This document shows, piece by piece, positions 3,558 through 27,792 of a stretch of 27,792 nucleotides of DNA; within the stretch, counting starts at the first letter, position 1, and each line of letters starts with the position of its first letter. The translations under genes were made by a program, and so were the position numbers. The notes beneath the pieces are model-generated. The model did no database searches. It was not told where the DNA came from and saw only the letters and a program-made list of their open reading frames with translations. The DNA is from a virus: IMG/VR virus record IMGVR_UViG_3300036785_000740, positions 1 through 27,792 of that record. One strand, written 5' to 3'.

Positions 3558-4410
3558 GATCGCCCACTCCGACTGGTGCCCCCGGGCCAGCTACTACCGG
3601 ATGAGCGGGGCGATCCCCAGAAACGACGAGCCCAGCCTGCACTGGCAGATGCAGATGATCTTCGATGAGGGCCACGAGATCCACCACAAGTGGCAGAAAA
3701 GGATCTGGGATCTGGGCCGGTTGTGGGGCACGTTTTACTGCGAGAGGTGCCACTACGCCTGGCCCGCCACCGCACCCAGCGAATGCGAGAAGTGCCATGC
3801 CAGGAGAGAGTTCCTGCGCTACCACGAGATCCCCCTCTTCGACCACAAGCTCTCCCTGGTCGGTCATGCCGATGGTGGCGTCGAGGACAGCCTGGTGGAG
3901 ATCAAGAGCGTCGGCCTGGGCACCCTGCGCTTTGAGGCCCTGGATCTCCTCCAGACCCACACCTACAAGCTCAACATCAACGGAAAAAAGAGAGAGTTCA
4001 TCGACTACGACGGCCTGTGGGATTCCATCCGCAGGCCCTTCCCCTCACACGTTCGACAGGGCGACCTCTACTGCTACCTGGCCCACAAGCAAGAGGTGAT
4101 CTTCCTCTACGAGTGCAAGTGGAACCAGAAGGTGAAGGAGATGATCGTCCGGTACCGGGTGGAGCGCATCCAGGATCGGCTAGACCAGTGCAGCAGAGTC
4201 ACGACGGCCCTGGGCGGCGGCACGGTTCCAGAGTGCCCGTTCGGGGGCTGCGCTGATTGTCAACGATACGAGGAGAAGCATGCCGCCAACGGAAGAGTCC
4301 TCGTCCGAAGGGCGACGTCTGACCCGCAGACCACCCCTGAACCTGCACGAAGTGGTGCAGAAAATGGTCAACGGCCAGCGACGCGACGTCTTTACCGATT
4401 TGGGGATTGA
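3379..4410 (+). CDS. Cas4-like PD-(D/E)XK exonuclease with Fe-S cysteines and an inserted zinc ribbon
   Basis: A probable DNA end-processing exonuclease of the RecB/Cas4 superfamily. From the GTG at 3379, a first cysteine occurs in DWCPRASYYR (C67). The nuclease core has LVGHADGG (D165) and LVEIKS (E174, K176), followed by RQGDLYCYLA and FLYECKWN. A cysteine trio closes the protein, ECPFGGCADC (C286, C291, C294). One cysteine in front and three behind is the Cas4/AddB iron-sulfur layout. An extra CxxC pair, FYCERC and ECEKCH (~121-139), looks like an inserted zinc ribbon. Conserved-looking sequence starts near residue 15, so ATG 3445 is an alternative start. The last ~43 residues overlap the next gene and look like shadow. 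It may pair with RecA in recombination. Confidence 0.88.
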   Translation: MRRLSRTGTSSRSHPVIDKNLRMLLDTTKRETRLLGEIQRSFLQPGEQNGLRNDALHPSEIAHSDWCPRASYYRMSGAIPRNDEPSLHWQMQMIFDEGHEIHHKWQKRIWDLGRLWGTFYCERCHYAWPATAPSECEKCHARREFLRYHEIPLFDHKLSLVGHADGGVEDSLVEIKSVGLGTLRFEALDLLQTHTYKLNINGKKREFIDYDGLWDSIRRPFPSHVRQGDLYCYLAHKQEVIFLYECKWNQKVKEMIVRYRVERIQDRLDQCSRVTTALGGGTVPECPFGGCADCQRYEEKHAANGRVLVRRATSDPQTTPEPARSGAENGQRPATRRLYRFGD

Positions 4411-5724: not shown

Positions 5725-5885
5725 CCGAGTCCCTGCAAGAGGCCATCAACGACGTGATGGGGGCCAACGACCAGGTTCAGCACCTGGTCAGCAACGGACA
5801 CTTCATGAACGGCACCACGACCCTGCTCAAGGCACTCAGCGACCTCGACTGGGCCGTTCGTCAGTTGAGCAGGGAGGCGTCATGA
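5721..5885 (+). CDS. Small helical protein (54 residues)
   Basis: A 54-residue, all-helical protein (TESLQEAINDVMGANDQVQ, then LLKALSDLDWAVRQLS). The GTG start overlaps the previous stop as GTGA, and the stop overlaps the next ATG. It has no cysteines, unlike its neighbours. The amphipathic helices could form a bundle or a binding partner. The function is unknown. Confidence 0.75.
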   Translation: MTESLQEAINDVMGANDQVQHLVSNGHFMNGTTTLLKALSDLDWAVRQLSREAS

Positions 5886-6274
5886 CCACCGATGACACCG
5901 ACATGACCAACGAGGAGTTCGACGCCGCCTTGGCCCACTCTCAGCCAGGCTTCGTACTTCGGGCCGGTCAGAACATCGGAACCCCATTCAATCAGAACAT
6001 CGGAACCCCCTTCATCACCCAGGCCGACCGGGAGCGAGACACCTACAAACCAGATCTCGTGAACCACCCGCCCCACTACGGCCACCATCCCTCCGGGGTC
6101 GAGTGCATCACCATCACCGAGTGGTACAACTTCAACGTCGGCAACGCCATCAAGTACCTGTGGCGGGCCGGTCAGAAGGAAGGCGCCGATCCCGTGGAGG
6201 ATCTGAGGAAGGCAGCGTGGTACGTCAACCGAGAGATCGAGAGGATAGAAAATGCCAACCAGCGAGGAACTTGA
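5882..6274 (+). CDS. DUF3310 family protein
   Basis: A 130-residue protein whose C-terminal ~75 residues match DUF3310, a small phage domain sometimes annotated as nucleotide-kinase-like. Key parts are VNHPPHYGHHPSGVECITI, FNVGNAIKYLWRAGQKEG and LRKAAWYVNREIERI. Biochemical function is not established. The N-terminal ~50 residues are acidic and include an exact repeat, QNIGTPF twice, from a ~24-base tandem duplication (5970-6012). The ATG overlaps the previous stop (ATGA), and the last codons overlap the Acb2-like gene. Confidence 0.9.
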   Translation: MTTDDTDMTNEEFDAALAHSQPGFVLRAGQNIGTPFNQNIGTPFITQADRERDTYKPDLVNHPPHYGHHPSGVECITITEWYNFNVGNAIKYLWRAGQKEGADPVEDLRKAAWYVNREIERIENANQRGT

Positions 6275-20310: not shown

Positions 20311-20695
20311 GACACCGGCAGTCACAGTGCTCCATCACACTGATCTCCATGCGACACAGATCGTGCTGACCCTGCTGGCACTCCACCGTGGCCCGGCGTC
20401 CGATGGTGCCACCCAGTTCAAGCACGGGCATGACCTCGTCCAGGCTGTCAGGGATGTCCTCTGTCCCGTGTGATGCGTGTGACGGATGATCTTGGGAATG
20501 CCCGCATAGACAGCGGGCTCCTTCGGCATCGGGCGTGAACCTGTGGTAGGTCCAGATGCCCTCAGCATCCGGCTCTTCTGGTGGCGGTCCTGGGTGCGGG
20601 CCATCCACGATCCTTAGCTCGTCATGGATGCGCCACCAGCCCCGCTCGCCACGGTCCTCCCACCGCCAAGGACCGGGGAGGTTACTGAGTGGCAC
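20300..20695 (-). CDS. GPWRWE-domain protein with Cys/His-rich end
   Basis: 131 residues from GTG 20695, which overlaps the preceding leftward gene by 14 bases. The N-terminus SNLPGPWRWEDRGERGWW then RIHDELRIVDGP closely resembles the start of the rightward gene at 26433, so the two share a small domain. The C-terminal half is Cys/His-rich: CLCGHSQDHPSHASHG, and CQQGQHDLCRMEISVMEHCDC, CRCHES, a typical zinc-binding pattern in phage proteins. The open frame extends to 20938 but that part is the shadow of the upstream gene. Function unknown. Confidence 0.75.
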   Translation of the reverse strand: MPLSNLPGPWRWEDRGERGWWRIHDELRIVDGPHPGPPPEEPDAEGIWTYHRFTPDAEGARCLCGHSQDHPSHASHGTEDIPDSLDEVMPVLELGGTIGRRATVECQQGQHDLCRMEISVMEHCDCRCHES

Positions 20696-20963
20696 TGTCG
20701 CCGGTCCTGGCCGCCGCTCGTGCTCTATCCGCCGCCATCTCAGCCCGGGTACGCCGCTTACGCCTCGGGGTACCGGCGACAAGCTCGCCTGCCCACCCGG
20801 ACGCACACTTCCAGGAGCAGAAGACCCGCCCCTCCAGGCTGCCCTCACCCTCCTGGTAGTAGTCGACCAACAGCCACCCATACGGGATCTCGGCACCATC
20901 AGTGGGTGAGTCGAGCTTCCCACAGGACTTGAGATCACACTGCACTGCTGAGATCTTCGCCAT
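20682..20963 (-). CDS. Small treble-clef-like zinc protein
   Basis: A 93-residue protein with AVQCDLKSCGK near the N-terminus and VFCSWKCASGWAGEL in the middle: two cysteine pairs, ~35 residues apart, spaced as in phage treble-clef proteins. The C-terminus is a basic, Arg-rich helix (RRKRRTRAEMAADRARAAA), which suggests nucleic-acid contact. The start has AGGAGCGCTG upstream of ATG 20963, a strong ribosome-binding site. Function unknown. Confidence 0.85.
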   Translation of the reverse strand: MAKISAVQCDLKSCGKLDSPTDGAEIPYGWLLVDYYQEGEGSLEGRVFCSWKCASGWAGELVAGTPRRKRRTRAEMAADRARAAARTGDSATQ

Positions 20964-26432: not shown

Positions 26433-26885
26433 ATGAGTAACCCCCCCGGCCCCTGGCGGTGGGAGAAGCGTAACGGCTTCTGGTGGCACATCCACCCGGA
26501 GCAGAACATCCACGATGGCCCCTACACCTGGACCGAACTGAACCTGGGTCTGGGCCACGACGTCCACTACTACGACCGTGACGGTGAACCGATTCCGGCC
26601 CTGGTGGCCTCCGAGTTGCTGGCCGACTACGAGTACAAGGTGGTGGCGAAGGATGTCTTCGTCATGGCCGACCAACCAGTGGAGGTGTCCACCGTGTGGC
26701 TGGGCCTGGATCACAACTTTTGGCCCGATTGGCCCGGGGGGCCGGTGAAGATCTTTGAGACCATGATTTTCGGCGGCAAGCTCGACCTGGAACAGTGGCG
26801 CTACTCCAGTGAGGGGGAGGCCATAGCCGGTCACACCGACGCCGTCAAGCTCCTCCACGCCGCCTACGCATCTCCAGATCGATGA
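26433..26885 (+). CDS. GPWRWE-domain protein fused to a phage FETM-domain
   Basis: A 150-residue protein. The N-terminal ~35 residues (NPPGPWRWEKRNGFWWHIHP) match the start of the leftward gene at 20300-20695. The C-terminal ~75 residues contain STVWLGLDHNFWPDWPGGPV, KIFETMIFGGKLDLEQWRYS and EAIAGHTDAVKLLHAA, the core of a small conserved phage family (STVWLGLDH, FETMxFGG, RYxxExxAxxGH) of unknown role. Start ATG 26433 is not coupled to the preceding gene (7-base gap). Last gene of the operon; it converges with the leftward gene at 26927. Confidence 0.8.
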   Translation: MSNPPGPWRWEKRNGFWWHIHPEQNIHDGPYTWTELNLGLGHDVHYYDRDGEPIPALVASELLADYEYKVVAKDVFVMADQPVEVSTVWLGLDHNFWPDWPGGPVKIFETMIFGGKLDLEQWRYSSEGEAIAGHTDAVKLLHAAYASPDR

Positions 26886-26926: not shown

Positions 26927-27319
26927 CTACTTCTTCTTCTTCACCTGGGTCCACTCGGTGACGTGGAACCTCCCGAAGCCCTGAGACCGGGCCGCTCCAA
27001 TGCCCATCTGCTCAGCCTTGAGCCAGATGATGGCCCACTCTTTTTCGGTGAAGAGGTAGTCGGTCCAGACCGAGGCTGACACCTTGGCGTCGTAGACGAC
27101 TTCCTCCACCGTGATGCCAGCCTTGTGGTTGTAATCGGCGGGGATGAACCGGGTGTGGAGATCGTCGTGCTCAGTGCGGCCCAAGGGCAGGATGTCGTCC
27201 TGCACCATGATGTGCTCAGCCGAGAAGGAGATGACGCCCTTGCCGGTGGTGCCGAACTTCTTGTCCAGCAGGTTGGCGGCACGGGCGACCGAGACCGCCT
27301 CCTTGAGACACGCCTTCAG
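26927..27319 (-). CDS. C-terminal half of a frameshifted phage protein with RAMP-like Gly loop
   Basis: About 130 residues from a CTG at 27319 that overlaps the upstream stop (CTGA); no ATG, GTG or TTG occurs earlier in the frame, and the first ATG (27208) would discard well-formed sequence. It begins GRHLKACLKEAVSVARA if read back into the frame, and ends GIGAARSQGFGRFHVTEW then TQVKKKK. In the phage family I recall, this part continues directly from the upstream gene's product: a GR-x-LKA-x-LKEA helix follows an ...FLxG turn. The Gly-rich loop resembles that of RAMP proteins. See the finding on the split gene. Confidence 0.7.
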   Translation of the reverse strand: MKACLKEAVSVARAANLLDKKFGTTGKGVISFSAEHIMVQDDILPLGRTEHDDLHTRFIPADYNHKAGITVEEVVYDAKVSASVWTDYLFTEKEWAIIWLKAEQMGIGAARSQGFGRFHVTEWTQVKKKK

Positions 27320-27633
27320 ATGTCGGCCCTCAGGAAGATCTCATCGGTGCCGTTGCGCCTGATCGGCCGGAAGCCATTTACGTGGCGGTCGGCCATCTCT
27401 TTGGTGGCTTCAGTGGCGGCAGCTTCGTCGGAGACCAGGGGATCCTGGGCGAAGATGCGGGTGACCTCAGCCTCGATCTCAAGCTCGTCGGTGAATCCCG
27501 CCTTGGCCCTCAGCCAGTTCCTGACCACGTCAGGGTTGCGAGGGGTGCCACCGTGGAGATTAGCCACGGTGAACGCCACTCGGTACTGGTAGGGCCAAAC
27601 GAGATCAATATATTCGTCAAAGGGTCCGGGCAT
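27316..27633 (-). CDS. N-terminal half of the same frameshifted protein
   Basis: A 105-residue protein from ATG 27633 (CGAGAGGAAAAAACC upstream). It reads YQYRVAFTVANLHGGTPRNP, then VVRNWLRAKAGFTDELEIEA and HVNGFRPIRRNGTDEIFL. The end (RADI) is reached just before the other half begins in the -1 frame. The gene at 26927-27319 appears to be the missing C-terminus, so the two would make a ~235-residue protein. First gene of a leftward transcription unit reaching the window's right end. The longer open frame up to 27720 is Pro-rich repeat sequence and is not preferred. Confidence 0.75.
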   Translation of the reverse strand: MPGPFDEYIDLVWPYQYRVAFTVANLHGGTPRNPDVVRNWLRAKAGFTDELEIEAEVTRIFAQDPLVSDEAAATEATKEMADRHVNGFRPIRRNGTDEIFLRADI

Positions 27634-27651
27634 GGTTTTTTCCTCTCGGGT

Positions 27652-27763
27652 TGGATTGTCGGGGTGGGGCTGGGGCGGCCTGGCCCGGTCAGTCAGGAGG
27701 GGCTTGGGACGGGCTGGCACGGGTTGTCAGGAGCAGGAAGGGTGGGACTGGGGCGGGTTGTCA
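27652..27763 (-). repeat. 34-bp imperfect tandem repeat, three full units and a partial fourth
   Basis: On the reverse strand the units start at 27763, 27729, 27695 and 27661, an exact 34-base period. Core of each: TGACAACCCG (units 1 and 2), TGACTGACCG (unit 3) and CGACAATCCA (unit 4), followed by xxCCAG and C-rich sequence ending YTCC or ACCC. The last unit runs into the ribosome-binding site of the leftward gene at 27633. The + strand carries G-runs in every unit. Confidence 0.75.
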
Positions 27764-27781
27764 GGGTGGGGGTGGGTCGGG
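27661..27781 (+). other. Cluster of G-quadruplex motifs
   Basis: On the + strand, four runs of at least three G with loops of at most seven bases occur at 27699-27723, 27740-27757 and 27764-27781. A fourth site at 27661-27678 has three GGGG runs but ends in GG. These lie in, or just upstream of, the 34-bp repeats, on the template-opposite strand of the leftward gene. Sequence potential only; folding is not shown. Confidence 0.6.
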
Positions 27782-27792
27782 TCGGTCTAGGG

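Follow-up and report, generated by a model that had tools for sequence, protein, structure and literature searches.

The repeat that ends this phage contig is, in all likelihood, a guide-RNA array of a phage-borne VIPR-like system, of which the contig includes only the part nearest the gene, and the array very probably encodes guide RNAs that are read by the CRISPR-like (RAMP) protein encoded next to it. What the analysis shows directly is the array with its code, the association with RAMP and accessory genes, the predicted fold of the RAMP protein and the hypervariability of the words in the array. The system resembles VIPR in architecture, in the class of its protein and in the period of its RNA, but not in its code; we have named the system a VIPR-like variant because the GG of VIPR is absent and C alone is fixed. 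By analogy, it would be the same kind of system as VIPR and work like it, as a variant with its own five-letter code.

VIPR (Viral Interference Programmable Repeat) is the subject of a 2026 preprint (PMC13142463, bioRxiv 2026.04.26.720920v2). There, VIPR loci are described as comprising a phage RAMP protein, Vipr, an accessory gene, vap, and pentanucleotide vrRNAs. Each vrRNA has 9-16 YNNGG pentanucleotides, in which NN specify the DNA target and one base is skipped between words; DNA binding is sequence-specific and represses transcription of competing phages. The preprint gives seven types, a consensus of GGY/NN 'or a related consensus' and, for some types, 'staggered arrays with overlapping vrRNAs' (PMC13142463).

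A five-base phase in the terminal repeat

The window, that is the whole stretch of DNA that was analysed, is 27,792 bases long and comprises all of IMG/VR record IMGVR_UViG_3300036785_000740. It derives from a large tailed phage of high GC content, as a linear fragment that encodes UvsX, a RuvC-like protein, an exonuclease and baseplate proteins and, as judged by reading, the end of a family A DNA polymerase at its left edge; a relative of the window phage is 114 kb long. The repeat lies in the last 145 bases, and its 34-nt units start at 27648, 27682, 27716 and 27750, followed by 9 nt from 27784 to the record end. An earlier note had described 34-base units of exact period at this place. The repeat is real, as the self-match at offset 34 is 67/107, a value reached by 0/2000 dinucleotide shuffles either at that offset or at any period from 10 to 70. 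The period is also exact, but the copies are imperfect (approximately 63% alike), and TRF calls just two of them (27666-27733).

The earlier note missed the 5-nt phase of the repeat. On the minus strand of 27648-27790, C is found at 29/30 anchors spaced 5 nt apart, with an extra short 'TGA(C)' step roughly every 34 nt, and six pentamers with one four-base step make up the 34-base period. In its best phase the array has a mean C fraction of 0.993; among 98 segments of the same window that are as rich in C, none exceeds 0.746. Read on the minus strand, the array runs CCC TAGAC CGACC CGACC CACCC CCACC CTGAC AACCC GCCCC AGTCC CACCC TTCCT GCTCC. A TGAC step is followed by AACCC GTGCC AGCCC GTCCC AAGCC CCTCC, and a double step (TGAC TGAC) by CGGGC CAGGC CGCCC CAGCC CCACC CCGAC AATCC AACCC. 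The features of the array and of the gene that it precedes are as follows.

27648..27792, minus strand: putative NNNNC guide-RNA-type array, ended by the contig edge (z = 7.7 against dinucleotide shuffles; 29/30 anchors C; 34-nt units with TGAC step)
27755..27765, minus strand: unit boundary motif CCTGACAACCC, handle-like
27721..27731, minus strand: unit boundary motif CCTGACAACCC, with a phase step from 27730 to 27726
27686..27697, minus strand: degenerate unit boundary CTGACTGACC, with phase steps at 27696, 27692 and 27688
27653..27663, minus strand: last boundary-type motif, CCCGACAATCC, ahead of the gene
27642..27646, minus strand: AGAGG, Shine-Dalgarno-like sequence of the leftward gene, read in the sequence
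27316..27633, minus strand: N-terminal part of the vipr-like RAMP gene (105 aa open frame, P0001), from the family alignment
26927..27328, minus strand: C-terminal part of the vipr-like RAMP gene, in another frame, with G-loop GIGAARSQGFGRF

There is no further copy of the repeat elsewhere in the 27,792-base window, a check that the earlier note had proposed for the phage. BLASTN of the repeat region against phages and an Rfam search of the window gave no match, and G-rich stretches in relatives of the window phage were coding sequence wherever they were inspected. Two other candidates were tried and rejected: the Cluster A stoperator GGTGGATGTCAAG was never matched with fewer than two mismatches, and a search of IMG/VR for paired GGTTGTCAGG gave 16 matches that were unrelated and represent chance or other repeats.

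The adjacent gene encodes a predicted Cas7-like RAMP protein

The array lies directly upstream of the leftward RAMP gene, and its minus strand is the sense strand of the gene. The claim that a repeated non-coding element belongs to this gene is right, and the proposed start at 27633 is plausible (ATG at 27633-27631, with the Shine-Dalgarno-like AGAGG at 27646-27642). No database family was matched by the gene product; the entry point to the family was a 248-aa protein encoded by phage Mae-JY09, to which the product is weakly similar. Homologues were found in three actinobacterial genomes, in one phage and in 27 viral contigs, and the family profile has one match each in 21/21 records.

The family alignment contains a Gly-rich loop, GIGASRSQGFGRY (GhGxxRSxGhG), and a Csm3-like LYIEGRQLKAAIKEA motif. 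PADLOC and NCBIfam gave weak matches, mostly to Csm3, Cas6 and Csx10, and five of the six PDB profile matches were CRISPR RAMPs (Cas5, Cas7, Csm4 or Cmr6). The AlphaFold model of the RAMP protein (pLDDT 79, pTM 0.71) matches type VII Cas7 and Csm3, with a Foldseek E of 7.6e-7 and a VIA Z of 11.8 over 166 residues (8yhe chain F). The modelling indicates that the leftward gene encodes a Cas7-like RAMP protein with a predicted Csm3/type VII Cas7 fold. Fold search, alignment and profile match together give the arrangement of Vipr, an RRM-type core with G-loop and thumb and no second RRM; the thumb and the lack of a second RRM were judged from length (approximately 225 aa) and secondary structure alone.

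In the window this gene is split. Its closest homologue, at locus L054, served as the reference for comparing the two frames: the N-terminal part is 58% identical to residues 6-89 of this homologue and the C-terminal part, in a different frame, is 55% identical to residues 100-223. Relative to all intact homologues there is a frame change between about 27328 and 27370 on the minus strand, where no obvious slippery heptamer was seen. The split gene may be broken in the window phage, as a pseudogene, or the split may be a sequencing or assembly error; function in the window phage is uncertain because of the frame change. The RAMP gene was not found in eight relatives of the window phage (up to 114 kb; several are fragments), so the module is probably accessory in this phage.

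We regard it as possible, though not the favoured reading, that the locus is a decaying remnant, an inherited VIPR-like module with a frame-changed RAMP gene and an array that is now inert. This would be compatible with the identity of the array but not with function here. The two frames, the lack of a visible slippery heptamer and the presence of the gene in 0/8 related records are all consistent with decay. However, the array code is intact, with C at 29/30 anchors, which argues against long decay, and the frame change could not be told from an error of one base in sequencing or assembly.

The same code adjoins RAMP genes in other phages

The reading of the element as a guide-RNA array draws on the homologous loci. 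Nearly every RAMP homologue is adjoined, upstream or downstream, by a C-rich, G-poor non-coding stretch of 200-1100 bases on the sense strand. The pooled autocorrelation of 21 arrays (approximately 11 kb) shows peaks at 5, 10, 15, 20 and 25, and further peaks of the 5n+3 series at 18, 23, 28, 33, 38, 43, 48, 53 and 58, with z up to 17.5. A logo anchored on CGACNWNCC has C at +13 (94%), +18, +23, +28 and +33, and also from -5 to -30, with a three-base phase step at GAC. The array units measure 33, 38, 43 or 48 nt, each being n x NNNNC with one GAC added. The longest homologous arrays reach approximately 1 kb, in keeping with the suspicion that the repeat continues past the window edge.

We parsed the arrays with two moves, the pentamer and the GAC step, and tested the parse against dinucleotide shuffles, which it beat in 22/22 arrays (z 5 to 46; 7.7 for the window). 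When 382 kb of phage genomes were scanned, the arrays ranked top and the only other segments were three weak ones; no array was found by the parser in relatives that lack the RAMP gene. Within the pentamer, P1 and P2 are fully variable (entropy about 2.0 bits). P3 has 1.5-2.0 bits overall (1.75, rising to 1.97 in low-GC phages), P4 has about 1.6-1.8 bits with G avoided, and P5 is C in 95-97%. Close relatives have almost no units in common, showing that the words are hypervariable. In the units that are shared, substitutions by pentamer phase number 8, 7, 13, 9 and 0 of 61 pentamers, too few to tell which letters are read. As a sequence pattern, these are the flanking tandem pentanucleotides with fixed and hypervariable positions that characterize VIPR. 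At L054, C-rich segments are present upstream of the accessory gene (2063-2379), between both genes (2716-2956) and downstream (3581-3870), and the locus is possibly one system surrounded by several separate arrays.

The C-phase code is identical in more than 20 loci at 46-72% GC, which is not what would be expected of low-complexity drift. It also bears on whether the C-rich, G-poor leader is a Rho-utilisation (rut) site or attenuator of the leftward gene, which we consider very unlikely. The sense strand of the window array is 55% C and 16% G and is predicted to be weakly structured, as in rut sites. Such a site would not be expected to hold C strictly to a 5-nt phase, to have 5n+3 units or to keep the same code at 46% GC, however, and the same applies to the arrays that lie downstream of the gene in several loci and to the exclusive association with RAMP genes.

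The earlier note suggested that the repeat could be sites for one regulator, a replication origin element, phased G-quadruplexes or another RNA or DNA structure. The three + strand G-quadruplex motifs do lie where they were described (a regular expression merges the last two) and, with the phased repeats upstream of a gene, might favour iterons, operators or G-quadruplexes. They are hardly above composition: the 141 nt contain 2 merged motifs against a mean of 1.3 in dinucleotide shuffles of the same sequence. The motifs are thus a by-product of composition, because shuffles give nearly as many, and the arrays of low-GC phages have no G runs. Moreover, the conserved part is C at one base in five plus the GAC step, and the rest is hypervariable even between closely related phages, which fits neither operators for one regulator nor an origin. 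The element is almost certainly not of this kind; the feature is real and unusual but its reading as a DNA structure is wrong. The RNA reading came closest, since what the element encodes is very probably RNA in the form of an array; for the C-rich RNA of the window array, however, folding predictions give less structure than in shuffles (z = +1.6).

An accessory gene accompanies the array

In 21/21 loci with enough upstream DNA, the array or the RAMP gene is immediately preceded by a gene for a helical protein of approximately 180 residues, and the minimal locus of VIPR, vipr plus a vap accessory gene, is therefore present in all loci with room for it. In the three loci without an accessory gene, the RAMP gene is less than 500 bases from the contig edge. 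In the window, the accessory gene would lie beyond the contig end. The accessory protein has no detectable similarity to the accessory protein of SUSP1, and its model had no PDB match with E below 5; the model has a pTM of 0.46 and therefore little can be said of its fold.

Comparison with VIPR, CRISPR and TIGR systems

As a positive control, YNNGG arrays were recovered from the raw SUSP1 sequence around ALH47069.1, which from its size and place we take to be SUSP1 vipr. The window family profile matches ALH47069.1 with E 4.4e-5 (a search of one sequence), and hhalign of the family against SUSP1 Vipr gave E 0.013 over the same motifs with a probability of only 3.4%. In common with VIPR (SUSP1; P. 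fulva type II), the loci have a phage-borne single RAMP protein with a G-loop and one accessory gene, and long intergenic pentanucleotide arrays with fixed and hypervariable letters on the gene strand (checked for SUSP1). The code differs: it is NNNNC here (frame C-NN-n-h) and Y-NN-GG in VIPR, and the strict GGY/NN (YNNGG) consensus is not seen in the present arrays, in which variable or C-biased letters stand where GG would be. The units also differ, being 33-48 nt and bounded by GAC here, whereas vrRNAs are approximately 100 nt with a structured tail. In the SUSP1 clade each vrRNA has a structured 3' tail; here the GAC step alone is common to the units, and in the four arrays tested for such a tail, folding was no better than in shuffles, apart from z -1.6 in one. 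The accessory protein differs from that of SUSP1, and the system is found here in actinobacterial and marine phages. In a SUSP1-type relative (L068, 3562-4500), the arrays are longer than those of SUSP1: YNNGG runs, rich in CNNGG, number at least five and extend over 12-18 pentamers each.

The interspersed array adjoining a RAMP gene, with unit sizes near 36 nt, also brings to mind a conventional CRISPR or TIGR array. In predicted fold, G-loop and LYIEGRQLKAAIKEA motif the RAMP protein is similar to Csm3 of the type III/VII CRISPR Cas7 backbone (Csm3, Cas7), and RNA contact by that backbone is likewise periodic, at 6 nt in CRISPR compared with the 5-nt period here. TIGR-Tas (PMC12045711) likewise has a phage-borne array of approximately 36-nt units adjoining a single effector gene; in TIGR systems, two repeats of 8-12 nt alternate along the array and the proteins have a Nop domain (PMC12045711). 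However, C is fixed at every fifth base in the present arrays, and no CRISPR array or other cas genes are present in the loci seen. Repeat analysis and the logo gave no conserved 25-36-nt repeats, and neither 8-12-nt dual repeats nor a Nop-domain Tas protein was found in the arrays or the family; what the units have in common is GAC plus a C per five bases. The RAMP family had no Cas1, Cas10 or Nop-domain match (Pfam matches for Nop). We therefore consider it extremely unlikely that the element is an array of either sort.

Proposed mechanism and target searches

If the VIPR-like reading is correct, transcription of the minus strand would yield an RNA of NNNNC pentamers, rich in C and mostly without structure, with units of about 33-48 nt set by the GAC step. 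Vipr-like protomers would align on this RNA, one per pentanucleotide, each holding the fixed C, a register suggested by the Cas7 fold and the preprint. The variable letters, the first and second of each pentamer and perhaps the third, would be displayed and serve as a guide with gaps. If VIPR is a good analogy, the ribonucleoprotein, assisted by the helical accessory protein, would then bind dsDNA that it matches in competing phages or prophages, with repression of transcription as the result.

We searched 720 kb of DNA from related phages and hosts for targets of 183 units, applying ten word/skip rules, and found no excess over shuffled guides. One gapped guide had no match in IMG/VR, and two gapped guides had none in 346 host-family genomes. 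TA is depleted at P1P2 (20 compared with 39.6 expected), which is weakly compatible with coding targets. Stop words at P1P2P3, taken as in-frame codons, are also depleted (8 compared with 17.5 expected), a hint at coding targets that is suggestive only.

These results would place a gapped-guide system of the VIPR kind in phages of actinobacteria, the sea and soil; its code is simpler, with one base of each five fixed, and its accessory protein is a different one. A bolder proposal, which we think rather unlikely, is that this is a new type of the VIPR lineage in which four (or three) letters of each pentamer are read, C is the one fixed letter and the GAC-delimited units are staggered. Such a code would be denser, lying between two-in-five VIPR and five-in-six CRISPR guides, and possibly an intermediate in the origin of CRISPR-type recognition. 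Should the reading rule prove to be other than the 1-nt skip rule, the system would document the evolution of RAMP-guide codes towards CRISPR. C at each fifth base with GAC steps is, in addition, a cheap signature for arrays beside any RAMP gene, including ones dismissed as low-complexity intergenic DNA.

Distribution and neighbouring genes

Like VIPR, the system is mainly encoded by phages or proviruses (27 viral contigs and one phage, with the RAMP gene in only 2/346 Streptomycetaceae genomes). A first profile scan of genome contigs gave no confirmed homologue; a single Streptomyces-type query found the gene in Streptacidiphilus carbonis and in an Actinomadura genome. One locus, L094, has the full order accessory gene, array, RAMP gene. 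The Microcystis phage Mae-JY09 (PP395641.1; L014/L031) is GC-rich and has the same RAMP-array module as the actinobacterial phages; its host label, the cyanobacterium Microcystis, may be questionable.

Two further observations were made in the window. A near-perfect 24-bp in-frame tandem duplication (QNIGTPFN) is present at 5968-6014 (+), inside the ORF at 5882-6274. The RAMP gene is adjoined by a gene for a 150-aa GW-rich protein (26433-26885, +), homologues of which are found in relatives at a site matching 20.7 kb of the window, where a matching stretch of about 110 bases (20585-20696) has been kept. From this comparison of sequences, the gene for the GW-rich protein appears to have moved or been duplicated.
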